Of a stretch of DNA of 64,000 bases, positions 3,801 through 55,706 are shown in pieces; positions within the stretch are counted from its first letter, which is position 1, and every line of letters starts with the position of its first letter. Where the stretch lies: NCBI GenBank assembly GCA_030267965.1, contig BRYA01000341.1:34030-98029 (forward strand), read 5' to 3'. The position numbers and the translations under genes are program-made. The DNA is from Triparma columacea. Lineage: Eukaryota; Sar; Bolidophyceae; Parmales; Triparmaceae. Below the pieces are notes generated by a model. It was given only the letters and a program-made list of their open reading frames with translations, was not told where the DNA came from and ran no database searches.

Positions 3801-5071
3801 AGAGCATCATGAACGAGGTCCTGGGGGTGGCGCACGGGGTCCTAGGGAGGCTCTTGGCGGGAATAGAGGGCCAGGGTGGTGGAGGGAACGTGGGCGAGAA
3901 CGCTGTTGCGGTGGACATGTGCTGCCTAGCTGTTGAATTGTACGGCGGCATCTGCCGATCGCCCTTCGCGGGCATTGTGGACTTTGAAGATGGAGGGAGT
4001 AGTGACAAGGGGGAGTCCTACATTTTGACGAGGTTCGTTACGCCTTCTCTCTCCAAGTTGGCCGGCCTGATGGTGCTATTTGGGGGCAACATGACAATTT
4101 GCGCCTCTCTTTTGCGTTGCTTTAAGGACTATTCGGAGTCTTACATCGCCTTCCTCAGTGCTGCCGAGTCCACGGCCCTTTACTCCGCGAGCAACGTCTT
4201 GCTGGAGGGCTACTCCACCTTGACAAAGGGGGGGAAGCTCAATAGGGGCAAGGAGGACGAGGAAGAAGAAGAAGAACAGGAGTACTTTGACGTGGTGTGC
4301 GCCATCCAGCTACTGAACCACCTAGGAACTAAGGAGTTCATGGACTGCGTCGACGGCAATAACCCCGGGAGCGTGAGCGACTTCGTCAGCGGAGAGGCGG
4401 CAGCGGCACCCATTGAAGTGACAGACGTGCTGTTTTTCGGAATATCTCAGCTCCTCCCTCTCGTTTCCGGGCTGCTCCAGTACCCCAAGCTGTGCAGCCA
4501 GTTCTTCGACTTGGTGGGGTATGTCGTTGAGACTTACCCTGAAAAACTCGACAAGGTGCCGCCGGATTTTTTCGAAGGCCTGGTCGGGAGCATGCTGTGG
4601 GGGATGGGCAATGTGGATGAGCAGGTCGGAAAGCACTGCCTGGCTGGTATCGAAGCCCTCGCCAAGGAGCACCTGGGAGGGGGCCTTCGGACTGTGGTTG
4701 GGGAGAAACCGGAGACCTTCAAAGTCTGCGTCGGGAAGCTGCTGAGGGAGATCGTTTTCGTCCACAGCGTCGTGCAGGACAGGATGGACAGCTGCGGTGG
4801 ATGCTTGATGGTGCTCATCGCTGTCGACCTCGGTTACTTCACCGGCTACGTCAGGGACATGATTGGGGAGCTCGGGGGAGCGGGGGGTGGGGGCATCGAG
4901 CGACAGCAGCAACAGCTCGTGCTCGCGGCCTTTGAAAGCCTGGTCAACCTGGAGACGATACAGGCGGGAATAAACGGGAAGGGTAACGTGGGGAGGCAAG
5001 CGAGGAAGCTTTTCAAGAAGAACTTCCAACTCTTTGTGCAGCACGTTCACTCGTTCCTCCACACGCTATAA
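896..5071 (+). CDS. XPO4: Exportin-4-like nuclear export receptor
   Basis: HEAT-repeat karyopherin, expected to carry cargo out of (and in part into) the nucleus with Ran. Six exons join in frame: 896-1459, 1533-1589, 1721-2067, 2241-2688, 2762-2872, 2969-5071, giving about 1209 residues, close to the usual 1150 of XPO4. Family marks: an N-terminal helix pair with LGLRQSPNAIEMFLEAINGL followed by LQAVVLKRW, and the segment VIDVLSWEF at about residue 245, a hallmark of the XPO4/XPO7 group. The rest is helical repeat. One acidic loop (EDEEEEEEQEY) sits near 4255-4285 and a Gly-rich loop near 4880. The acceptor at 2240 was preferred over an earlier AG at 2181 because only it keeps the frame. All introns but one are phase 0. 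XPO7/RanBP17 is the alternative family call. Confidence 0.85.
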
Positions 5072-29370: not shown

Positions 29371-29469
29371 GCACACACATTCGATGATGCAGGTAAGGAA
29401 GGAAGGAAGGAGTGGTATCGCAATGTCGTTTGAGACGTTGAATGTTGTTTGTTCCGCTGATGTAAATAT
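29371..29469 (+). repeat. Diverged direct repeat, copy 2
   Basis: Matches copy 1, offset about 320 bp, with scattered changes; shares CAGGTAAGGAAGGAAGG, GTTGAATGTTGTTTGTTCC and GATGTAAATA. Both copies contain a perfect GTAAG donor-like site, so each could be the start of a 5' UTR intron or a relic exon edge. Confidence 0.8.
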
Positions 29470-29627
29470 ACCAAAATCATCCAACACCCCCCACCCCCTC
29501 CCACCCACACCATCACCAACACACCACACACCCACCAACACACACCCCTTCCGCGACTCGCTTCGTTCGTCGCCCCCCAACAACCACCAACAAATCACTT
29601 CAAACAGGACCCACAACAACATCATCA

Positions 29628-32296
29628 ATGCCTCAACCTTCTGGCCCAGTATCAGCCCCTCCCCCAACAGGTGACTCATACTTCACGGACGCACGTAGGG
29701 GTGAAGTCTCCGAGCTCCGCGCCCTCCTCAAGACCTTCCCAGTCGAGCGTTCCCTAACCCGTCGTCGTGATGTAATAAAGAAGGTCATAGCCTACATGAC
29801 CTTAGGAATCGACGTCTCCCGTCTCTTCACCGAGATGATACTAGCAGTGGAGGACAGGGACCTCGTTATAAAGAAGATGGTATACCTGTACCTAACGACG
29901 TACGCCCAGAACTCCCCTGACCTCGCGCAGATGTGCACAAACACACTACAGAAGGACACGTCTAACGACGACCCCATAATAAGGGGTCTAGCCCTCCGCA
30001 GCCTATGCAGCCTAAGGGTCGAGTCCATGGTCGAGTACGTGCTGGACCCACTGAGGAGGAGCCTGGGGGACTCGAACGCGTATGTGAGGAAAACGGCTGT
30101 TATGGGCGTGCTGAAACTGCACGACCTTAACCCTGAGCTTGTTACTGAACTTACTGAGACTGTTAGGGGGATGGTGGGGGACGTTGATACGATGGTCGTT
30201 GTTAACGTTATCAGGACACTCAATGAGATAAAGAGGAAGGAGGGGGGGATGCAGGTGGATAGGAAGGAAATGCTAGGACTCCTTAACAGGATACAGGAGT
30301 TCGACGAGTTCGGACTTAGCGAGGTGCTGGGACTTCTACTCAAGTATAAACCACAGGGGAAGGAAGAGGTGAGGGTATATATATATATGCACATATATAT
30401 GCATGTATAGAGCCAAATATTGCTGCCCAGTACAATCATCTCACCCCCTCCGCCCCCCCCCCCTAGATGTTCGCCATCATGAATCTTCTCGACCCAGTCC
30501 TCCGAACCTCAAACTCCGGTTCCGTCCTCGGTACCATCCGTTGTTTCCTGAAGCTAACCTCCTCGATCCCCGGTATGGGTGAGATGGTTTGCCAGCGCGT
30601 TAAACCCCCCGTACTAACACTCGTAGCCGGAGGCACCCCTGAGCTCGTATACGTGTTGCTTACGCACTTGAAACATTTGGCGCAAATCAGCCCCGAGACG
30701 TTCTCACCTGACTACAGGCAGCTGTATGTTAGGTACAACGAACCTAGCCATGTTAAGTACCTTAAGGTTGAGGTACTAGGACTACTGGCGAACGAGGAGA
30801 ACGGACTGGATATCATCACGGAGCTCAGCGAGTACGTGAGCGACCCTGACGGGAAGCTCGGGGTTCTGGCTGTTAGGGCCATAAGCGAGGTTGGGTGCAG
30901 CGACAGGTGTCTCCTCTCAGGAGGTCAGGGTGGTATAGGTGAGGTGGTTGTCGAGAAGCTTGTGGAGCTAACGGGTCTAGACGTACCACACGTAAGCAGC
31001 GCAGCAGCTTCGTGCCTAAAAGACGTGGCTAGAAAACACCCTGACATGAGGGGACTTATAGCCCCCGTGCTACCGAGATGCGCGAGGGCAATCACGGAGG
31101 AGAAGGGGCTGGCGAGCACGGTCTGGATGCTGGGGGAAATGGGGGAGATGATCACGGAGGCACCGTACGTGCTAGAGAGGATGGTGGACGGGGACGGGTG
31201 GGAGGGGTATGGGGGGGAGGTTAAGATCAGCCTACTTACCGCGGCGGTGAAACTATTCTTCAAGAGGCCGGGGGAGATGCAGGGTATCCTCGGAAAGTGC
31301 CTGGTGAAGTCCAGCGCCGACGCCACAAGCCAGGAGCTACACGACAGGGCGCTGCTGTACTACAGACTACTGGCGGAGGGGGGGGAACAGGCGGAGGCAG
31401 TGGTGGCGGGGACGGACCAGAACGTTGACAGGGCTAGGAAATTCGCAGAGGAACAGGTGAGGAAGGGGCGGAGGGGGGGGGGGGGGAGGGGAGGGGAAGG
31501 GCCTTGCAGCCCCCCCCCAACGCGCAAGCAAACAAAAAAAAACCAAGCGAAACCTCACACGTATTTCTCTTCCACCTCCCCCCCCCCCCTCCCTTCCCGT
31601 ATTTAGGACTCGGAGACGTTCAAGAGGCTGCGTGATGAGTTCAACACCCTCAGCATCGTCTACAGTCAGGAGGAGAAGCACTGGTGCCAGGAGGAGTTCA
31701 GGGGTTTCGGGGGTAGGACCGACGTTAGCGAGGGTGAAGTCAAGGTCGTGCAGGACGCCTTCGGGGGGAGCGTTGTTATCGAGCCGACTAGCGCCTCCCT
31801 CCCCCCACCCCAGCAGCAGCAGCAGGTAGGGGAGCCGGCGGCTGCGGCTGGGGACACCTACGAGGACCTCCTGGGTTTCGCCAGCGACGAGCCGGCTTCG
31901 GTAACCGTTGCTCCCCCCTCCCCCCCGGCACCCTCCGTCTCGCTTAACCCGAACTTCACACTGGACGGGGGATCCTTCCAGTCCATGTGGCAGAGCCTAC
32001 CCGAGGCGTGCTCGAGCCTGTCCCCGTCCACCGGGTCCCACACGCCTAACTCGGTCGAGGACGCACTCAGGAAACTCTCCATCCTTACCATGGCTAGCGG
32101 GGAGACTGCGGGTGAGATCAAGCTGTTCCTATACTGCCAGGAGGAGGGGGGGGGAGGGGTGTACCTGGTGCAGGTCCTGATCGACAAGAACTGCGAACCG
32201 AGGGTGGCGAGCGTTACGGTTAAAACAAAGGGGGGGAAGGAACCGGATACTGTCATGGGGATGGTACACAACGGGATGGGGAACGTGGGGTTTTAA
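29628..32296 (+). CDS. AP4B1: AP-4 adaptor complex beta subunit
   Basis: Large subunit of the trans-Golgi AP-4 coat. Exons 29628-30368, 30467-31456 and 31607-32296 join in phase 0, 806 residues (human 739). The trunk matches AP-4 beta more closely than AP-1/2 beta: KKVIAYMTLGIDVSRLFTEM, DPIIRGLALRSLCSLRVESM, then EEMFAIMNLLDPVLR across the first splice, and YNEPSHVKYLKVEVLGLLANE. A Pro/Gln/Ala hinge (PPPQQQQQ) leads to a small beta-ear (B2-adapt) domain with FQSMWQSLP. No clathrin box was seen, as expected for AP-4. Intron 1 contains a TATATATATATGCACATATATATGCATG tract. Confidence 0.93.
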
Positions 32297-39010: not shown

Positions 39011-42000
39011 TCACAACTTTGGCGTCCAGCACCTTGCCGGGCCATACGGTGACGCCTTATCACATATCCCACCTGAGACAGTGTAGTTGTACGCAGCTTG
39101 CCACGCAGTCGACTTGTAGAACATGCCTTCGTAGTCCTCTGAGGTGAACCCAGTTGTGTTGGTGGCCCATCCTGTCACATCTTTGTTGAAGTCGGTGTTA
39201 GACTCAAACATGTATCGCATACTGGTAACCTTCTCAACATTCCAGTCTTTCAAGTCTTGGTTGAAACTAGTGTACGCAAACATCACGTCCATATCAGTGA
39301 CACGCGAGACATTCCAGGCTCCGATAGGTTGGTCGAAAGGGGAACCATAAAACATTGCCTCCATACTTGTAACCTTCTCAACATTCCAGTCTTTCAAGGG
39401 TTGGTTGAAATCGGATTCCGAAAACATCACGCCCATGTCAGTGACACTCGAGACGTCCCATTCCCCGATAGATTGGTTAAAAGAGGACGATCCAAACATT
39501 CCGTACATACTTGTAACCTTCTCAACATTCCAGTCTTTCAAGTCTTGGTTGAAAACGGAGTTCGCAAACATTTCCCCCATGTCAGTGACACTCGAGACGT
39601 TCCAGCCTCCAATTGGATAGTCGAAAGAGGAAAATATAAACATTGCGCGCATATTTGTAACCTTCTCAACATTCCAGTCTTTCAAGTCTTGGTTGAAAAT
39701 GGATTCCGAAAACATAAACTCCATATCAGTGACATGTGAGACGTTCCAGCCTCCGATGGGTCGGTCGAAATAGGAACGTCGAAACATTCCAGACATACTT
39801 GTAACCTTGTCAACATTCCAGTCTTTCAAGTCTTGGTTGAAATTAGAGAACGCAAACATATACGTCATGTCAGTGACACTCGAGACGTTCCAGGCTCCGA
39901 TGGGCCGGTAGAAAGAGGAACGTTGAAACATTGCCTTCATACTTGTAACCTTCTCAACATTCCAGTCTTTCAAGTCTTGGTTGAACTTAGTCTTGGTGAA
40001 ACTAGAGCTCGCAAACATATTCCCCATGTCAGTGACACTCAAGACATTCCAGCTTCCGATAGGTCGGTCGAAAGAGGAATCTTGAAACATTGCGTACATA
40101 CTTGTAACCTTCTCAACATTCCAGTCTTTCAAGTCTTGGTTGAAATTGGAGTTCGCAAACATACTCCTCATATCAGTGACACTCGAGACGTCCCAGCCTC
40201 CAATAGGTTGGTCGAAAAGGGAACCATCAAACATTCCGTTCATACTTGTAACCTTCTCAACATTCCAGTCTTTCAAGTCTTGGTTGAAACCGGAGCCCGC
40301 AAACATCACGTCCATGTCAGTGACACGCGAGACGTTCCATTCTCCGATGGGTTGGTCGAAAAAAGAACCAAGAAACATTCCACGCATACTTGTTACCTTC
40401 TCAACATTCCAGTCTTTCAAGTCTTGATTGAAACCGGAGAACGCAAACATTCCATCCATATCAGTGACACTCGAGACGTCCCAATCCCCAATAGGTTGGT
40501 CGAAAGGAGAACCTTGAAACATTGCCAACATACTTGTAACCTTCTCAACATTCCAGTCTTTCAAGGTTTGGTTGAAATCGGATCTCCCAAACATATACCT
40601 CATGTCAGTGACACTCATGACGTTCCAGCCTCCGATAGGTTGGTCGAAAGGGGAAGCATCAAACATTCCGATCATACTTGTAACCTTCTCAACATTCCAG
40701 TCTTTCAAGTCTTGATTGAAATTGGAGAACGCTAAGATAAACGTCATATCAATGACACTCGAGACGTTCCACTCCCCGATAGGTCCGTTAAAAGAGGAAT
40801 CATAAAACATTGATCGCATACTTGTAACCTTCTCAACATTCCAGTCATTCAAGTCTTGGTTGAAATTGGAGTACGCAAACATAAACCCCATGTCAGTTAC
40901 ACTCGAGACGTTCCAGCCTCCGATAGGTTGGTCGAAAGAGGAATCTTGAAACATTGATGACATACTTGTAACCTTCTCAACATTCCAGTCTTTCAAGTCT
41001 TGGTTGAAAACGGAGCCCGAAAACATACTCCTCATATCAGTGACACTCGAGACGTTCCACTCCCCGATAGGTCGGTTAAAAGAGGAACTGTATCCGTTAA
41101 ACATAAACGCCATATCTTCAACACTCCCTGTGTTCCAATAACTGATATCGGCATTGAACGTCTCTCGTGTTACATTCCCTCCGGTTCCACTTCCACAGTA
41201 CTTGAAAACCAACTCTCTCATGCTTGTTACCTTAGCGGTATCCCATTCTTCGATCGTGCCGTAGGTTGCAGCGTGAGCATTGTTCCATTTTGCAGGGCTT
41301 GCGCACCAGGTTGACATGGCCCAGAACATGGTGCCGGCGGTGGTGCTGTTGCCGTCTTTCAACGGCGTGACATGCTTGTTTGGCGTCCAGCACCTTGCAG
41401 GGCCATACGGTGACGCCTTGTCACATATCCCACCTGAGACGGTGTAGCTGTACGCAGCTTGCCACGCAGTCGAATTGTAGAACATGTCTTCGTAGGCCTC
41501 TGAGGTGAACCCAGTTGTGTTGGTGGCCCATCCTGTCACATTTTGGTTAAAGTCAGTGTTTAACGCAAACATGTATCGCATAGTAGTAACCTTCTCAACA
41601 TTCCAGTCTTTCAAGTCTTGGTTGAAACCAGAGTACGTAAACATAAACCCCATGTCAGTGACATGCGAGACGTTCCAGCCTCCGATGGGTTGGTCGAAAG
41701 AAGAACCGTCAAACATTCCACGCATACTTGTAACCTTCTCAACATTCCAGTCTTTCAAGTCTTGATTGAAATCGGAGCTCGCAAACATATACCTCATGTC
41801 AGTGACACTCGAGACGTCCCATTCCCCGATATGTTGGTCGAAAGAGGAATCTTCAAACATAAACGCCATGTCAGTGACACTCGAGACGTCCCAGCTTCCG
41901 ATAGGTTGGTCAAAAGAAGGAGTATTGTAGAACATTGCGTACATACTTGTAACCTTCTCAACATTCCAGTCTTTCAAGTCTTGGTTGAAACCGGAGTCCA

Positions 42001-42688
42001 CAAACATTTCCTCCATATCAGTGACACTCGAGACGTTCCACTCCCCGATAGGTCGGTTAAAAGAGGAACATCCGGCAAACATTGCGTGCATATTCTCAAC
42101 ACTACCTGTGTTCCAATTACTGATATCAGCATTGAACTCGTATAGTGTAACATTCCCTTCAGTTCCACAGTACTTGTAAACCAAATCTCTCATGCTTGTT
42201 ACCTTAGCGGTATCCCATTCTTCGACCGTTCCATAGGTTGCAGTGTGAGCATTGTTCCATTTTGCAGGGCTTGCGCACCAGGTTGACATGGCCCAGAACA
42301 TGGTGCCGGCGGTGGTGCTGTTGCCGTCTTTCAACGGCGTGATAGTAGGCCCGGGTTTGGGCGCAGGAGTTGGTGCAGGCGTTGGGCTCTCAGTTGGCTG
42401 CGTAGTTGTGCCCTTGTTGCCCTTGTTGCCCTTGTTGCCTTTCTTGCCTTTCTTACCCTTCTTGGCCTTGTTGCCCTTGTTGCCCTTGTTGCCTTTGTTG
42501 CCCTTGTTGCCCTTGTTGCCCTTAGCAAAGATGATGGTGACACTGTCGCTGATGTCATTACCGCCAAAGGCAAAGTCCTGTAGGCCTCTTGAAGGGGACC
42601 TCAGCGACTTGTCAGTCCCGTGGCTAGTGATGACGAAGAGTACCAAAACTAGCAGCGAAGCAGCGAGCAAAGCGACTATTGACTTCAT
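39011..42688 (-). CDS. Giant secreted DUF285 (BspA-like surface) repeat protein
   Basis: 1225 residues, single exon. Signal peptide [24 protein letters not shown]; a Lys/Gly/Asn low-complexity tract made of about a dozen GNK and KKG units (residues 57-95); a Thr/Pro stretch; then two blocks, each opening with [20 protein letters not shown] and each ending [14 protein letters not shown]...[16 protein letters not shown]. Between them run about 16 copies of a 48-residue double unit: [18 protein letters not shown] followed by [17 protein letters not shown]. This is the DUF285 family, best known from bacterial surface lipoproteins and some microalgae, where extracellular adhesion or cell-wall roles are guessed. 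Many N-x-T/S glycosylation sites. The high DNA identity between units suggests continuing recombination. No transmembrane anchor at the C-terminus. Confidence 0.92.
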
Positions 42689-43223
42689 CTTTTGTCAAAA
42701 TGAATATGATCAATAAAGGCGAGGGCTGAGGAAAAGGGCAATTTTGTGAGATATTGCACGCGATTAGGGCAGAATAAGTCTGAATTGTGTCTTGAAGGGT
42801 GTATGTGCCTTATATACGTATATTTACAAACTTCTAAGGGCTCAATCGACCAGAATTTTGAGTAGAAATCACATACGTCGAGAACGAGGCGTGTGGCGGA
42901 AATCCCTATTTTCTTGAAATGAAACATTAGTGGGGGGAGGAAAGGCAGTGGTCGATACAAACAAGTGATTCCAAAGCGTTTGCGCTTGCTTCAACGCTTA
43001 CCTCTGTCTGATGAAATCTTTTATGAGTTGTATTCCGAATGATGAATGATTCCCTTCTTTTTTCCCAACTTTTTTGCAATTTAATTAATTTTGGTAATTT
43101 AGGATGAGAAGATCCGTTAGGCCCATTACGACGACCTTATTACGACGACCTTAGTCCATAGATATCACTGGCCTACCTATTAGAGGAGACTACGAAGTAA
43201 CCCTGTTCCTTAGAAATAAAGTC
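42689..43223. other. Intergenic, upstream of the DUF285 gene
   Basis: AT-rich with no ORF of interest. A 14-bp direct repeat ATTACGACGACCTT lies at 43125-43138 and 43139-43152. Confidence 0.6.
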
Positions 43224-43326: not shown

Positions 43327-44469
43327 TCACTTCTTCTTACCCCTCCTATTCTTCCCCTTCTTGCCATTCTTCCCCGTCGCAACTGCTCCTTCCGCTACTC
43401 CCACATCCGCTCCTCCCGCCGCCACTCCCTTCCCTGTCTTGGATCTTTTCCTGACCATGGCCTCGCTCTCCCCCCTTTCGTTCAGTGGTCCCGTGCATAG
43501 CACCTTGTGCTCCTTCCAGTGCTTGAGCTGGCACTCCCTCGAGCAGTAGGCGACGTTGCGACAGGGACACATGTGGAGCTTGTCGCGTGACTTGGCAGTT
43601 AGAGCCTCGCAAACAAAGCAGCAGAAGGGACGGCCTTGAAGGTAATGTTTCGTGATGTTGGTGATTGTAGGATCGCGTTTGGAAGGACGGGTTAAATTGG
43701 AATTGTCTCGTACTACGTCGGAATCGGGCTTTCCGAGATGAAGAAATGTTGCGAACATCTTTATTGCGACATCCCTACTAAGAAGTGTGGGGTGTTCTCC
43801 TTTGCACGCTTGGAGGCAATGTCCAAACACATTATTCACGTCGTTGGTGCTTGGAATAGCACCGCGCGTGAGAAACAGCCTGCATAGATCGTGTGCTCCT
43901 TCACATATAGTAATAATAAGTGGTGAAAGAATACATCCATTAGGGTAAACATCTGTCTTGTTCACATTTGCTCCATGATCGAGAAGTGCTATGGCCTGAT
44001 CAATGTGTCCCTTTTGAGCAGCAAGCATCAAAAGGTTGGAAAAGGCTTCTTTCGCCAGCCCTTCGACTCGTAGGTCGATATTAGGGTCAAGTCCATGTTC
44101 TAAGAGCAATCTCAAGATTGTTGAATTGTCACTATTCGTCATTGATATCTCTGCGGCCAAGTACATGGCTGCCTTGTGGTCGAAGCCGGCCTCTAAGATA
44201 AGCTTGACCATCTCAACATTATTGTGAAGAGAGGCGAGTGAGAGGACTGAAACTACCTTCCATTTCTCATCAACAAGCATTGAAAAAACGCCTAACAAAA
44301 CCTCAGGACCATGTTCCTTGGCATACCCCTTGATGCGATCCCAGTCTTGGTCATCAGTCCATTCCATGCACAACTGTTGACCTTCTGTCAAATCGTCCCA
44401 ACTAGATACTGTCACATTTGTGGTCTCTGATGAATTGTTTGACGATTGTACCTCTGATTTTGATTCCAT
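43327..44469 (-). CDS. Ankyrin-repeat MYND-finger protein, paralogue 1
   Basis: 380 residues, single exon. Residues 1-60 are polar, with a conserved LCMEWTDDQDWDRIKGYAKEHG. Ankyrin-like repeats fill about 75-220 (NVEMVKLILEAGF, ILRLLLEHGLDPN, HIDQAIALLDHGANVN, LCRLFLTRGAIP). A MYND zinc finger sits at about 285-330: CCFVCEALTAKSRDKLHMC, CRNVAYCSRECQLKHWKEHKVLC. A Gly/Ala and Lys-rich basic tail ends KKGKNRRGKKK. Protein-protein adaptor role likely, partners unknown. It belongs to a three-gene cluster with the two genes that follow. Confidence 0.88.
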   Translation of the reverse strand: MESKSEVQSSNNSSETTNVTVSSWDDLTEGQQLCMEWTDDQDWDRIKGYAKEHGPEVLLGVFSMLVDEKWKVVSVLSLASLHNNVEMVKLILEAGFDHKAAMYLAAEISMTNSDNSTILRLLLEHGLDPNIDLRVEGLAKEAFSNLLMLAAQKGHIDQAIALLDHGANVNKTDVYPNGCILSPLIITICEGAHDLCRLFLTRGAIPSTNDVNNVFGHCLQACKGEHPTLLSRDVAIKMFATFLHLGKPDSDVVRDNSNLTRPSKRDPTITNITKHYLQGRPFCCFVCEALTAKSRDKLHMCPCRNVAYCSRECQLKHWKEHKVLCTGPLNERGESEAMVRKRSKTGKGVAAGGADVGVAEGAVATGKNGKKGKNRRGKKK

Positions 44470-44592
44470 TTTTGAGCGAACTTATCCCGAATGTAAAATT
44501 ATAGCGGCAAATTACGAAATGAAACTTATCAACAAAGCCTTGAGAGTACTCCACTTAGGCAGAAGTGTCGTGTAGGTGCTAATATTGGAGTC
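44470..44592 (-). promoter_or_regulatory. Duplicated upstream region, copy 1
   Basis: The 123 bp just upstream of paralogue 1's ATG. It aligns end to end with the 123 bp upstream of paralogue 3 (47520-47642), sharing GGCAGAAGTGTCGTGTAG and CTAATATTGGAGTC. It likely carries the promoter and 5' UTR. Confidence 0.8.
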
Positions 44593-44773
44593 AAACCAAA
44601 ATTGCCACACCACCAACCCCAAAATCTGTCTCTCAATTTTTCGTTGAATTTGCAAATCCCTCTAGCAGCCAAGGGTACCGTCTCTTGACATACAACATAT
44701 TCAGTAGCACTGCATCGATTGCATACACCCTCCTCTCAACAACTGAGAGCCCATCATTGCCCTTAGTTCCAAT

Positions 44774-45949
44774 ATGGAGTCCCCAAAGTATGACGAAAAG
44801 TGTGGAGGATCAAATTCAAGCCCTATACTGGCGAATGAGCCATCCAACTCGCTTCAAGCCCCAACTGAACCGACAGAGGCCCAATGGCAGTGCCTTGGTT
44901 GGGCTGATAACCAAGAGTGGGATCTTATCAAGGGGTATGTAGAGGAGCACGGCCCTGAGGTTGTGTTGGGTGTTCATTGGTATATTGGGCCTAACAGCCT
45001 ACCTCATCAAGCTTCAGTCCTTGTCGAAGCGACACTTAGGAAGAACGTTGAGATGGTCAAGCTTGTTTTGGATGCCGGCTTCAATGACAAAAATGCGATG
45101 AGGCTTTCCGCAGCTGAATCAATCAACAACCACGGTGACGACACTACAATCTTGAGGATGCTCCTCGAATACGGGCTTGACCCTAACATGGATTTAAAGG
45201 TCGAAGGCTTTGTGTTCGACGATATACCTAGGATCACGCTTCTTATGGAGGGTATTATGAAAGGGTGCCACATTAACCACGCAATAGCACTCCTTGATCA
45301 CGGTGCAAATGTGAACAAGACAAGAGTTTGTCACCCTAGTGGCAAAATTGCTAGTGCACTAGTGTATGCTATCCAGTTTGGGAGGAAATCTCTATGCAAG
45401 TTGTTTTTCGAGCATGGTGCTATCCCAACGAACGACGACGTGTATTGGGTATATGGTGAATGCCTCGTGGTGTGCAAAAAGACACATCCAACCCTTAGTA
45501 GCGATCGTGCACGGGCTGTTATGGTGACGTTTCTTCACCTCGGAAGGCCCGACGTTGATGTAGTCTACGCGGCACACAAGAGATATTCCGCTACAATCCA
45601 TCGCGATCCCGTCATCGCACAGATCACGAAGCAGTACCTAAAGGGCCGTCCCTTTTGCTGCGAGATTTGCGAGGCGCTCACCGCCAAGGGCCGCGACAAG
45701 CTCCTCATGTGCCCCTGCCGCACCATCGCTTACTGCTCGAGGGATTGCCAGGTCAAGAACTGGAACAAGCACAAGGATGAATGCAAGGGCGCGCTGAACG
45801 ACAAGGGGGAGAGTGAGGCGATGGTCAAGGAGAGGAAGAAGACTGGGAAGGGGGTAGCGGGAGGGGCGGGAGGGGCGGACGGAGGGTTGGTGAAGGGGAA
45901 GAAGGGGAGGGGGGAGAAGAAGGGAAAGAAGGGGAGGGGCAAGAAGTGA
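44774..45949 (+). CDS. Ankyrin-repeat MYND-finger protein, paralogue 2
   Basis: 391 residues, single exon, opposite strand to its two relatives and more diverged from them than they are from each other. Same order: GWADNQEWDLIKGYVEEHGPEVVLG near residue 45, ankyrin repeats (NVEMVKLVLDAGFND, ILRMLLEYGLDPN, HINHAIALLDHGANVN), MYND CCEICEALTAKGRDKLLMC with CRTIAYCSRDCQVKNWNKHKDEC, and a Lys/Gly tail. Divergent from paralogue 1 with a 304-bp gap. Confidence 0.88.
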   Translation: MESPKYDEKCGGSNSSPILANEPSNSLQAPTEPTEAQWQCLGWADNQEWDLIKGYVEEHGPEVVLGVHWYIGPNSLPHQASVLVEATLRKNVEMVKLVLDAGFNDKNAMRLSAAESINNHGDDTTILRMLLEYGLDPNMDLKVEGFVFDDIPRITLLMEGIMKGCHINHAIALLDHGANVNKTRVCHPSGKIASALVYAIQFGRKSLCKLFFEHGAIPTNDDVYWVYGECLVVCKKTHPTLSSDRARAVMVTFLHLGRPDVDVVYAAHKRYSATIHRDPVIAQITKQYLKGRPFCCEICEALTAKGRDKLLMCPCRTIAYCSRDCQVKNWNKHKDECKGALNDKGESEAMVKERKKTGKGVAGGAGGADGGLVKGKKGRGEKKGKKGRGKK

Positions 45950-46367
45950 AAATCGGGACGTGGGTGACTTGTACGATGCATGGAAAATACGTATTTACTG
46001 AAGTAATTGTGAAGAGCATTTCGCTTCTGAAAAAAGCTAAAGACTATGACACTTTTCTTGCCTACATTGTTCAACATTGATTTTAGAGTTACAGAAATTC
46101 CAGAATAACTCTCCACATAACCTTTGGGAGCCTCTTGCGTACCGCAGTTACACCAAGTGGTTGCGCTTCACCTCCGTCCTGTCGCTTCCTCTTGTTTTGG
46201 TCGGGTTAGGGTTCTAGGAGGGGGAAGGGGGAAGGGGGGGACAAAATTAGTTGGAGAAATATGAAATCGTTCATTCTCACGCTAATCGCCAATAAAAAAT
46301 GAGCAATTTGATGTACATCGAATTCTGAAAAATTGCTTATAGCCGCCGCATTACTGTATTGTTTCGT
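45950..46367. other. Gap between convergent ankyrin-MYND paralogues 2 and 3
   Basis: No gene. From 46356 the sequence TGTATTGTTTCGTTCACTTC copies the 3' flank of paralogue 1 (from 43314). ACAAAATTAGTTGGAG (46242) recurs at 47703. Confidence 0.7.
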
Positions 46368-47519
46368 TCACTTCTTCTTACCCCTACCCTTCTTCCCCTT
46401 CTTGCCATTCTTCCCCGTCGCAACTGCTCCTTCCGCTACTCCCACATCCGCTACTCCCCCATCCGCTCCTCCCGCCGCCGCTCCCTTCCCTGTCTTGGAT
46501 CTTTTCTTGACCATCGCCTCGCTCTCCCCCCTTTCGTTCAGCGGTCCCGTGCATAGCACCCTGTGCTCCCTCCAGTGCTTGACCTGGCACGACCGAGAGC
46601 AGTAGGCGACGTTGCGGCAGGGACACATTAGGAGCTTGTCACGCTCCTTGGCAGTAAGAGCCTCGCAAATGAAGCAGCAGAAGGGACGGCCTTGCAGGTA
46701 CTGTTTCATGATGTTGGTGATTGTAGGATCTCGTTTGGAAGGATGGACTAAATTGAATTTATCTCGAACTACGTCAGAATCGGGCTTTCCGAGATGAAGA
46801 AATGTTGTAAACATCTTTATTGCGACATCTCTACTAAGCCCAGGGTATTCTCCTTTGCACGCATCGAGGCAGACATGAAACACATTATCCACGTCGCTGG
46901 TGGTTGGAATAGCACCGCGCGTGAGATACAGCCTGCATATGTCGTGTGCTCCATAACTCATAGTATAAGTAAGTGGTGTAAGAATGTTTCCACTTGGCAT
47001 AACCACTGTCTTGTTCACATTTGCTCCATGATCGAGAAGTGCTATGGCCTGATCAATGTGTCCCCTTTGAGCAGCAAGCATCAAAAGGTTGGAAAAGTCT
47101 TCCACCAACCCTTCGAATCGCAGGTCGATATCAGGGTCCACATTAGGGTCAAGTCCACGTTCTAAGAGCAATCTCAAGATTGTTGAATTGTCACTATTCT
47201 CTATTGACATATCTGCGGCAATGTATATGGCTTCCATGTTGTCGAAACCGGCGTCTAAGGTAAACTTGACCATCTCAACATTATCGTCACGAGAGGCGGT
47301 GATGAGGACTGAAGCAACACCTTCATGCTTTTTATGAACGCCTAACAAAACCTCAGGACCATGTTCCTTGGCATACCCCTTGATGCGATCCCAGTCTCGC
47401 TTATGAGCCCATTCCAAGCACAACTGCTGACCGTCTGTCAAATCGTCCAAACTATATACTGTCACATTTGTGGTCTCTGATGAATTGTGTGACGATTGTG
47501 CCTCCGAATTTGATTCCAT
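46368..47519 (-). CDS. Ankyrin-repeat MYND-finger protein, paralogue 3
   Basis: 383 residues, single exon, very close to paralogue 1: LCLEWAHKRDWDRIKGYAKE, ILRLLLERGLDPN, HIDQAIALLDHGANVN, MYND CCFICEALTAKERDKLLMC, and a tail with extra Gly/Ala/Val repeat units (GGADGGVADVGVAEGAVATG). A duplicated NVDPDIDL and a shorter segment after LLGVHKKHE are the main differences. Flanks on both sides match paralogue 1, so the duplication included promoter and terminator. Confidence 0.88.
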   Translation of the reverse strand: MESNSEAQSSHNSSETTNVTVYSLDDLTDGQQLCLEWAHKRDWDRIKGYAKEHGPEVLLGVHKKHEGVASVLITASRDDNVEMVKFTLDAGFDNMEAIYIAADMSIENSDNSTILRLLLERGLDPNVDPDIDLRFEGLVEDFSNLLMLAAQRGHIDQAIALLDHGANVNKTVVMPSGNILTPLTYTMSYGAHDICRLYLTRGAIPTTSDVDNVFHVCLDACKGEYPGLSRDVAIKMFTTFLHLGKPDSDVVRDKFNLVHPSKRDPTITNIMKQYLQGRPFCCFICEALTAKERDKLLMCPCRNVAYCSRSCQVKHWREHRVLCTGPLNERGESEAMVKKRSKTGKGAAAGGADGGVADVGVAEGAVATGKNGKKGKKGRGKKK

Positions 47520-47642
47520 TTTTGAGCGATCCTATCTCGAATGTAAGTTTATAGAGGCAGATTACGATGTGAAACTTATTTTAAAAGCCTTGAAATTACT
47601 TCACGCAGGCAGAAGTGTCGTGTAGCTGCTAATATTGGAGTC
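47520..47642 (-). promoter_or_regulatory. Duplicated upstream region, copy 2
   Basis: Counterpart of 44470-44592, directly upstream of paralogue 3. The similarity ends at TTGGAGTC in both. Confidence 0.8.
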
Positions 47643-53342: not shown

Positions 53343-53645
53343 GGAGGGGGAGAGGAATGGGAGGGTGGGGAGGGTTAGAGGGAGAAGGAGAACCTAGATA
53401 GACTGGGAAAATACAAAAAACCACTCATTTGGTTGAAGAGCAGGTTTTAGCTTTTTCACACAACTTGTTTTGTTCGGAGGGGGTGGGAGTATAGCGGCCC
53501 TGTTAATTTCAATCGTCGCTAATATATTTTGGAGTACTTTGATTTCATTTTGGAGAAATGAAGCAATCCAGATAAATGTTAGCAAAAAAATCACTTTTTG
53601 GAAGCATGCTATTTTCTTAGCTAAGTTATGCGCTCTTTTAGCTCA

Positions 53646-53711
53646 GTGAGTTTTCTACCTATCCTACCCCTCTCTCTTCAACCCATTCTCATCATCCCCA
53701 TCTCATCATAG
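53646..53711 (+). other. tRNA intron 1 (66 nt, GTGAGT...CATAG), in the D loop
   Basis: Lies between nucleotides 14 and 15 of the tRNA. The 5' end GTGAGT and pyrimidine-rich 3' end match the introns of neighbouring protein genes. Because the exon after it also begins GT, the cut could be shifted by 2 nt. Confidence 0.8.
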
Positions 53712-53722
53712 GTTGGTAGAGC

Positions 53723-53797
53723 GTAAGTCAAAAGACGAAACCGTTGCTGTAAACATATGACTTGTCCTTACCCTGTCCACCTCCCTTTTTCCAATAG
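53723..53797 (+). other. tRNA intron 2 (75 nt, GTAAGT...CAATAG), between D stem and position 26
   Basis: Perfect GTAAGT donor, a CTCCCTTTTTCC tract and a TAG acceptor. Removing it restores A26 and the anticodon stem. Confidence 0.82.
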
Positions 53798-53847
53798 ATG
53801 CCATTCGTAATGGTAAGGTCTGTGGTTCGATCCCGCAAGAGAGCAAA

Positions 53848-53855
53848 TTTTTTTT
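53848..53855 (+). terminator. Oligo-T Pol III terminator
   Basis: Eight T residues starting 2 nt after the tRNA discriminator base. Confidence 0.8.
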
Positions 53856-54563
53856 GCCCGCGCGCGCAACCCCAAGCCGAGAGGAGCATGCTGGCAAAGT
53901 TTGAGAGTGATTGGAGGCAGTGGTACTTTTTCCCAACCCAACTTAAATTCTAGAGGTGTGCCAGCGCGCCGCCAAGGCCTACCTGGCTGGGATTTCAGGA
54001 ATACAACTATTACAATAAAGGGAAACTACCGACATCAGCACGTCATAATACAACCAGATTTGGACTGAGACCAAACTGTTTTGGCAAAAGAAAATCTTAT
54101 CGAAATTAAGGTAAAAAGGGATAACAATGACAATGATAACACGTTTCAAGGCATTCACCAGTTGTAATTTGTCCTATTATTGATTTATATCTCCTATTCA
54201 CGTCCAAGTTCAAGTTATTTCCACTCTTCAAATCGTGGTCGACTGACTGAGTGGACATTGGGTTGGGTTTTTCGTCTCATAGTATGAGATAATACTACTT
54301 TCGGCCATATTTCCGATACTGTTAGTATCATATTGGGGTTTATATCGGGCAGAGAATCGCCATTGACGCCACTGACACATTCCTTCAGGGTCTCACCATC
54401 CCTCTCCCTTGTTCTTTGTCAATCACACCACACTAACCCTCCTGATCCTGCCAATAATGTAGGAACTCGTAGAGAATCAGTGTCAAATAGTTTGAGCTTT
54501 CAACTGTAACCAAAAAGACAGGTGAACAGATCCTCTCAACCCCCGGACTCTCCCCTTCCCAAA
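53856..54563. other. Intergenic
   Basis: AT-rich, no domain-bearing ORF and no second tRNA seen. The end is presumably the promoter and 5' UTR of the LRR gene. Confidence 0.5.
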
Positions 54564-55706
54564 ATGCCCCAAACAGCAGTATACTCTGGCGTAGAGAGCT
54601 TCTTGAATGATCGTGAACTCATAGAGGTGACTTTTGCACAAGGAGTGACGTCGATTGGCGAGGACGCCTTCAGGGGATGCTCCTCCCTCATGGCCATCAC
54701 CATCCCGGACGGAGTGATGACTATTGGTGGTGGCGCCTTCTGGGAATGCTCCTCCCTCACGGCCATCACCATCCCGGACTCGGTGACGACGATTGGCGTA
54801 TGGGCCTTCTCTGGATGCTCCTCCCTCGCAGCCATCACAATCCCGGACGGAGTGACGATGATTGGCGATGGCGCCTTCGACACATGCTCCTCTCTCACGG
54901 CCATCACAATCCCGGACGGAGTGACGACGATTGGCGGGGGCGCCTTCTCTGGATGCTTCTCCCTCACGGCCATCACCATCCCAGTTGGAGTGACGACGAT
55001 TGACGAATATACCTTCTATGGATGCTCCTCCCTCACGGCTATCACGATCCCAGATGGAGTGACGACGATTAGCGATGGCGCCTTCCAAGATTGCTCCTCC
55101 CTCACGGCCATCACCATCCCGAACGGAGTGACAATGATAGGTGATTACGCCTTCGCGGGATGCTCCTCCCTCACGGCTATCACGATCCCCGACGGATTGA
55201 CGTCGATTGACGATGGCGCCTTCTACGAATGCTCCTCCCTCACGGCCATCACCATCCCTGACGGAGTGACAACGATTGGCGAATGCGCCTTCAGAGAATG
55301 CTCCTCCCTCACGGCCATCACCATCCCAGTTGGAGTGACGACAATTGGCGAATGCGCCTTCAGGGATTGCTCCGTCCTGACGAAACTTATTCTATCTCCT
55401 GCCATTTCCATCGGTGAAGACTGCTTCTCGGACTGCACTGCCCTAATCGCTGCCGCTGCTGATAAAAATATGCCGACTGTAACGGACCTCCTCCATTACA
55501 GGTGGCACCGCAATGTTGCTGTGATCGAACGCGTCAACGCTCTGCTTTGCCTCAAGGGAACCTGGGATCACGTGGAGGATCCACCCAGGAGATCAGCTAG
55601 GAAGCGGAAGCGATCTGACGGAGTTGAAGCCCCACCGCTAAGGGTAACTGAGGCACGTGAGAAGATCCCGAAAGTTTTGTGGAGAGTCATTCTGGAATAT
55701 CTGTAA
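54564..55706 (+). CDS. BspA-type leucine-rich repeat protein (LRR_5), intracellular
   Basis: 380 residues from the ATG at 54564. Ten to eleven tandem 23-residue repeats, consensus ITIPDGVTTIGDGAFxxCSSLTA, encoded by 69-bp DNA units of high identity. There is no signal peptide, unlike surface BspA proteins. The C-terminal 90 residues leave the repeat and contain a bipartite basic stretch (RRSARKRKRS) that could be a nuclear signal, then IPKVLWRVILEYL. These proteins are greatly expanded in several protists and microalgae; function unknown, presumably protein binding. Confidence 0.9.
   Translation: MPQTAVYSGVESFLNDRELIEVTFAQGVTSIGEDAFRGCSSLMAITIPDGVMTIGGGAFWECSSLTAITIPDSVTTIGVWAFSGCSSLAAITIPDGVTMIGDGAFDTCSSLTAITIPDGVTTIGGGAFSGCFSLTAITIPVGVTTIDEYTFYGCSSLTAITIPDGVTTISDGAFQDCSSLTAITIPNGVTMIGDYAFAGCSSLTAITIPDGLTSIDDGAFYECSSLTAITIPDGVTTIGECAFRECSSLTAITIPVGVTTIGECAFRDCSVLTKLILSPAISIGEDCFSDCTALIAAAADKNMPTVTDLLHYRWHRNVAVIERVNALLCLKGTWDHVEDPPRRSARKRKRSDGVEAPPLRVTEAREKIPKVLWRVILEYL

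Follow-up and report, generated by a model that had tools for sequence, protein, structure and literature searches.

Triparma columacea belongs to the bolidophytes, the sister group of the diatoms, and a 64,000-nucleotide stretch of its genome (the whole stretch analysed here, hereafter the window) contains a gene that raises the question of whether a spliceosome can make a tRNA. Among the proteins encoded in the window, the dynamin has 89% identity to its Triparma strigata counterpart and 96% to an environmental protein, and the exportin-4-like protein has 88% identity to one from Triparma retinervis. An initial annotation of the window had described a tRNA-Thr(CGU) gene split by two GT-AG introns of mRNA style, neither of them at position 37/38, and had raised spliceosomal processing of a tRNA as a possibility in this lineage. 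To our knowledge the spliceosome is not known to make tRNAs, and a literature search, conducted mostly without subscription journals and bioRxiv, did not turn up any description of tRNA genes with spliceosomal introns. A 2026 review, in line with general understanding, separates tRNA splicing from spliceosomal splicing (PMC13149111). The tRNA genes of Parmales were previously predicted with tRNAscan-SE by Ban et al. 2023 (PMC10328945), and the word ‘intron’ is absent from the main text of that paper.

A tRNA-Thr(CGU) gene interrupted by two GT-AG introns

The tRNA-Thr(CGU) gene occupies positions 53632-53845 of the window on the plus strand, as do all of the parts described here, and is interrupted by two GT-AG introns. 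Exon 1 (53632-53645) provides tRNA positions 1-14 and is followed by intron 1 (53646-53711; 66 nt, GTGAGT...CATAG), which lies in the D loop at junction 14/15 and hence splits the A box, as the initial annotation had pointed out. Exon 2 (53712-53722) is 11 nt long and provides tRNA positions 15-25; intron 2 (53723-53797; 75 nt, GTAAGT...AATAG) interrupts the gene at junction 25/26, and exon 3 (53798-53845), which provides positions 26-73, carries an intact B box, GGTTCGATCC (53824-53833). The three exons join to 73 nt that ARAGORN names as a standard tRNA-Thr(cgt), and the coordinates originally assigned to both introns were exact, with both junctions indeed away from 37/38. Intron 2 contains a T5 run and a branch-point-like CTTAC (53767-53771), the A of which (53770) is the 28th base from the 3′ end, while a motif scan of intron 1 returned a weak branch-point-like CTCAT (53688-53692; A at 53691), this being one of seven among the 33 tRNA introns described below without CTWAC in the tested stretch. 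When alternative boundaries were scored with ARAGORN, that of intron 1 had the top score, in a tie with 23 others of the 115 tried, and that of intron 2 was outscored by 3 of 115. The T8 run noted earlier downstream of the gene is located at 53848-53855, is followed by GC and is a probable Pol III terminator. A probable Pol III promoter element, AATGTTAGCAAAAAAATCACTTTT (53575-53598), starts 57 nt 5′ of the tRNA and matches, at 17 of 20 positions, an element common to split and intact tRNA genes; in 2,000 random 95-nt stretches of the window, the best match averaged 9.4 (99th percentile 13, maximum 17).

In the raw window, ARAGORN found no tRNA, also with introns allowed, and Rfam gave no match at the gathering threshold. 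An automatic procedure that took no account of the finding was applied to both strands: every GTRNG...HAG intron of 45-95 nt was taken out, singly or in pairs, and the 4,523 removals produced exactly one tRNA that spans its junctions, Thr(CGU), with an ARAGORN score of 117.6. The same procedure applied to 12 shuffled windows (28,049 removals, plus strand only) produced one weaker tRNA, with a score of 102.4, and a chance origin of the window tRNA was rejected on the basis of this comparison.

At least 18 tRNA genes of the genome are split by GT-AG introns

A search for further tRNAs recoverable by GT-AG removal had been suggested, and pattern and similarity searches of the genome (37.9 Mb in 789 contigs, one genome) led to at least 18 tRNA genes that are split, by 33 GT-AG introns in all, the census being incomplete. 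The genes are those for Thr(CGU), Thr(AGU), Arg(CCU), Arg(UCU), Arg(UCG), Gln(UUG), Gln(CUG), Lys(UUU), Trp, Leu(CAA), Leu(UAG), initiator Met (two genes), elongator Met, Phe, Ala(CGC), Pro(UGG) and a permuted Ser(CGA). Nine were discovered with patterns that combine a B box and a T run (two of these were also partly found by a genome-wide Rfam tRNA search), one by similarity and eight by means of the upstream element, the presence of which in those eight is therefore not independent evidence. The element also precedes eight intact genes, namely Lys(CUU) twice, Ile(UAU), Thr(UGU), Ser(UGA), Leu(UAA), Leu(CAG) and Gly(CCC), as well as the Val and Pro(AGG) genes, in which a 37/38 intron is the only one (for Val, Pro(AGG) and Gly, the anticodon was read by eye). 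Four identical intact Arg(CCG) genes (L070, L071, L072; G000 C54, C501, C670) have no upstream element and, over the 35 nt inspected, no T run, and are perhaps tRNA-derived repeats.

Counted as rows with overlaps included, the search patterns gave more hits in the genome than in a reversed control, both for the B box with TTTT (62 against 35) and a looser B box with T7 (22 against 7) and for the upstream element alone (44 against 12), with a tRNA start (10 against 0) or with a T run (20 against 3); when as many as three mismatches were allowed, the element had 25 matches in the genome and 2 in the control. Many of the pattern hits are not tRNA genes: an automatic scan of 99 loci, which allowed up to three introns and omitted eight loci numbered 40 or higher as overlapping others, found a split tRNA in 15, all of them already known, and missed Pro(UGG) and the permuted Ser because it was limited to three introns and normal gene order. 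Similarly, 23 of the 3-kb loci returned only six known split tRNAs. Common finders largely miss these genes. Among 12 other split genes searched with Rfam, three reached the gathering score, two of these only partly, and the Rfam tRNA family gave 14 matches among the 63 of 675 candidates scored across the whole genome. Genomes with seemingly incomplete tRNA sets may conceal similar genes.

The tRNA introns carry the signals of spliceosomal introns

The 33 tRNA introns are 57-80 nt long and are found at about 22 positions (read by hand from the exons) that extend from 5/6 to 60/61, that is, from the acceptor stem to the T arm, with none at 37/38. Five introns interrupt Pro(UGG), in which internal exons are as short as 7 and 8 nt, and three each interrupt Ala(CGC) and Thr(AGU); the first intron of the latter (L139) has the same position, 25/26, as intron 2 of Thr(CGU). 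The A box, the B box or both are interrupted in many of the split genes. Intron boundaries were set by the tRNA product and, where several GT-AG choices existed, the one giving a tRNA was used; with boundaries set in this way, all 33 introns have GT-AG ends, and some junctions can be moved by 1-3 nt with the product unchanged. With the ARAGORN score as sole judge (32 introns, the permuted Ser gene excluded), the GT-AG boundary ranked first, alone or in a tie, in 20 and within the top 5% in 30, some other boundary having a higher tRNA score in 12.

The 5′ splice site reads GTRAGT in 26 of the 33 introns and has G at +5 in every one. CTWAC is present between -45 and -12 in 26 introns, compared with a mean of 6.0 and a maximum of 17 in 2,000 shufflings, and AG is absent between the branch motif and the 3′ splice site in all 33, where 9.5 AGs would be expected in total. 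The base at +6 depends on the preceding exon: T is found in only one of six introns that follow an exonic AG but in 25 of the 27 others (Fisher p = 5e-4; 8e-4 when near-copies are left out), which is as expected if U1 pairs across the exon-intron junction. The same trade-off is obeyed by the seven accepted introns of protein genes in the window, all of which read AG|GTGAGR. These seven were taken from a homology-guided alignment; 29393-29434, 29565-29670 and 31457-31606, supported by one distant homologue, were left out, as were 4850-4954 and 1957-1993, all being unlikely or less certain and some lacking GTGAG. The likeness to protein-gene introns that had been claimed for the Thr(CGU) introns holds in that both kinds share GT-AG ends, a U1-type 5′ site, a YAG end and, in several of the protein introns, a CTAAC-type branch motif. 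It does not extend to identity of style, since the protein introns are longer (73-173 nt) and begin AG|GTGAG(A/G), whereas the tRNA introns mostly begin GTRAGT. On the strength of their GT-AG ends, U1-type 5′ site, branch motif and AG exclusion, the tRNA introns would be classified as U2-type. Self-splicing introns of group I or II were also considered, for which 57-80 nt is too short. Rfam gave no match to either group in the window (gathering threshold), in 15 loci (E up to 1), of which 12 are split genes and which leave out the loci of four other split genes, or in locus L128 (E up to 5); self-splicing introns were rejected given zero intron-family matches in the loci scanned.

As judged from sequence, the GT-AG introns differ from introns cut by the tRNA endonuclease

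Ectopic tRNA introns can be cut by the tRNA splicing endonuclease, as in the red alga Cyanidioschyzon merolae, and the GT-AG ends described above could then be incidental. This organism has ectopic introns in the D, anticodon and T arms together with permuted genes (PMC9602550, PMC3978253), and many ectopic introns of the Guillardia nucleomorph are described as having no defined bulge-helix-bulge (PMC3978253). The Triparma genome likewise contains one permuted gene, 37/38 introns and a gene for the endonuclease (a single tRNA_int_endo match, PF01974, at C29:13653-13877, E 6e-12). The initial annotation had been unable to see a bulge-helix-bulge fold by eye, and computation bore this out: none of the 33 introns has at least three pairs in the central helix together with at least three in the outer helix, and bulge-helix-bulge introns were rejected on this two-helix test, an exclusion that, as judged from sequence, is less than full for relaxed forms of the motif. 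The mean numbers of pairs in the central, outer and inner helices (best of equivalent boundaries) were 1.8, 1.6 and 1.4, compared with 1.5, 1.5 and 1.1 at random. Eight introns reach three or four of the four central pairs, which is somewhat more than the ~15% expected arithmetically for the best equivalent boundaries and speaks for the endonuclease; however, the two that have all four have no outer pair, and introns 1 and 2 of Thr(CGU) have one and zero central pairs, respectively. By comparison, 37/38 introns are present in six genes (Met, Phe and Gln(CUG) by ARAGORN; Trp, Val and Pro(AGG) by eye), four of which (Phe, Met, Gln(CUG) and Trp) carry GT-AG introns as well, and four of these six introns reach at least three pairs in both helices, with boundary shifts of up to 2-3 nt permitted and hence a freer choice than was given to the 33; at the nominal boundary, two reach this level, one fails and three are too short to score. 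Importantly, GT-AG ends, a branch motif, AG exclusion and a U1 trade-off have no role in the endonuclease mechanism, and we therefore consider it very unlikely that the endonuclease removes these introns. That a novel, non-spliceosomal enzyme reads mRNA-like signals in tRNA precursors is highly improbable, because the signals fit pairing with U1 and U2, the exon/intron trade-off included, and because a spliceosome would in any case be needed for the protein introns.

Control elements point to probable Pol III transcription, and no intact copies of three split tRNAs were found

The upstream element, AATNATAGCAAAAAATCNNNTTTT, begins 34-84 nt 5′ of 17 of the 18 split genes and is present in all ten genes that are intact or have only a 37/38 intron, Arg(CCG) aside, these ten having been found without use of the element. 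All 18 split genes have a run of T7-T9 within 30 nt downstream, and GC often comes directly after this run, in split and intact tRNA genes alike. A U3-like RNA (L093, minus strand, G000 C124, near 10860; Rfam Plant_U3, with 29.4 bits against a gathering score of 80) likewise has the upstream element and a T run, and the U3 gene of plants is a Pol III gene. At L127 (G000 C145, near 18387), the upstream element and a T7 run accompany a further candidate RNA gene, which matched no Rfam family up to E 5.

A spliceosome could also act on Pol II precursors in which tRNA sequences simply happen to lie. Coupling to Pol II is the usual situation for splicing, many of the genes have split A and B boxes, and the T5 run inside three of the 33 introns could stop Pol III in some organisms, the terminators of the split genes being T7 or more. 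Against this stand the downstream T7-T9 run of all 18 genes, the sharing of the upstream element with unsplit tRNA genes and the U3-like gene, and the precedent of fission-yeast U6, a spliced Pol III transcript (PMC10484740); we consider Pol II precursors unlikely, and the split genes are probably transcribed by Pol III, a conclusion we hold less firmly than that of spliceosomal removal. The split genes could also be pseudogenes killed by insertions, with intact copies doing the work elsewhere, perhaps in parts missing from the assembly. The assembly may indeed be incomplete, many isoacceptors were found neither intact nor split, and the second initiator Met gene (L135, minus strand, G000 C275, 26451-26496), which has both introns, is without two bases of the D stem and the upstream element and may be dead or decaying. 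However, an intact Thr(CGU) elsewhere, which the initial annotation had named, together with a silent locus, as the mark of a pseudogene, is absent from the 37.9 Mb as judged by similarity searches that detect close copies only: the spliced Thr(CGU) query hit only its own third exon, and equivalent queries found only the two split copies of initiator Met and, for Phe(GAA), only its own last exon. As initiator Met and Phe are indispensable, their introns must be removed if the assembly is fairly complete. Furthermore, 17 of the 18 genes yield, once their introns (up to five per gene) are exactly removed, a tRNA accepted by ARAGORN with the anticodon that was read by eye; control elements are retained in 17 of 18; and the two initiator copies, the intron 2 boundaries of which are 3 nt apart, have identical joined sequence across this slid junction. 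The pseudogene reading was rejected on the lack of intact Thr(CGU), initiator Met and Phe genes in these searches and is extremely improbable.

Overall, it is very probable that the spliceosome removes these tRNA introns. The proposal first made for a single gene now draws support from 18 genes and 33 introns, from the U1 trade-off, branch motif and AG exclusion, from the shared upstream element and from the movement of introns described below.

Related introns occupy different sites in the tRNA genes

Several of the tRNA introns are related to one another. The Leu(CAA) intron, at 5/6, and intron 1 of Gln(CUG), at 12/13, share 86% identity over 75 nt (E 4e-16); intron 1 of Pro(UGG) is related to both of these and its intron 5 to the Leu intron, introns 3 and 4 of Pro being similar to each other. 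The Gln(UUG) intron (11/12) resembles intron 2 of Gln(CUG) (56/57), and the Lys(UUU) intron (24/25) resembles intron 2 of Phe (26/27). The scores of related introns are 46-79, and none of 6,000 shuffled pairs scored above 33. Arg(UCU) and Arg(UCG) have kept the same intron position. The presence of kin introns at differing positions in different tRNA genes indicates that introns have moved; copying by reverse splicing would fit this pattern, recombination between tRNA genes perhaps being the alternative. When one of the introns was used as a genome-wide query, the only matches were the intron itself and that of Leu(CAA).

The permuted Ser(CGA) gene (L096, minus strand, G000 C199, near 17480) consists of the 3′ half, a six-base linker and the 5′ half. 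As read from the sequence and from re-joining, it has a GT-AG intron in the T loop and its halves would join at the anticodon loop; ARAGORN returned Ser(cga) for many, but not all, of the 56 re-joinings tried. Permuted tRNA genes are listed in the accessible part of a 2014 review only from a red alga, green algae, a nucleomorph and an archaeon (PMC3978253).

A model for tRNA maturation and its relation to known systems

In the model we favour, working tRNA genes would be expressed as probable Pol III transcripts that start under the control of the upstream element and end at the T7-9 run. U1 would pair with the 5′ splice site and U2 with the CTTAC or CTAAC branch point, the first AG downstream would serve as the 3′ splice site, and the spliceosome would remove all GT-AG introns before the cloverleaf folds and the ends are trimmed. 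The ordinary tRNA endonuclease would separately cut the 37/38 introns of some of the same genes, and introns would have been copied between tRNA genes, perhaps by reverse splicing. Taken further, the data make it likely that the spliceosome of this bolidophyte is an essential tRNA maturation machine and that its introns copied themselves from tRNA to tRNA, the tRNA genes having become a landing ground once the internal A and B boxes were dispensable for transcription. Translation could then not start without splicing, because the initiator tRNA carries spliceosomal introns. If true, a tRNA-making spliceosome couples translation to mRNA splicing and routinely handles probable Pol III transcripts and exons of 7-8 nt. 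These genes would also offer a tractable case of the spread of spliceosomal introns, as every base of the product that must be made is known.

The closest parallel is U6 of fission yeast, where a Pol III transcript has an mRNA-type intron that is proposed to have arrived by reverse splicing (PMC10484740). As proposed for the split tRNAs, this is a spliceosomal intron in a small structured RNA made by Pol III; however, U6 is itself a component of the spliceosome and has one such intron, whereas here 18 tRNA genes have 33 introns, up to five in a gene. The ectopic introns of C. merolae and of prasinophytes (PMC9602550, PMC3978253, PMC4090602) are alike in that several can occur per tRNA, in the D, anticodon and T arms, and are accompanied by 37/38 introns, an upstream promoter, a T stretch and permuted genes. 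In contrast to the Triparma introns, which fail the bulge-helix-bulge test and carry GT, a branch motif and AG, they are assigned to the endonuclease and bulge-helix-bulge. Canonical 37/38 introns co-occur in the Triparma genome but differ from the GT-AG introns in position and, probably, in enzyme. Introners, which are mobile elements that generate introns (PMC12730881), resemble the kin introns of the Leu, Gln, Pro, Lys and Phe genes in that related introns occupy several unrelated sites; unlike introners, the Triparma families have two to four members and are seen only in tRNA genes.

The surroundings of the Thr(CGU) gene contain long repeat proteins at 39011-42694 and 54510-55706, the second of which adjoins the split tRNA gene and by eye resembles BspA leucine-rich-repeat proteins, and three related proteins, ankyrin/MYND-finger-like by eye, which are encoded in a row on both strands at 43327-47531.
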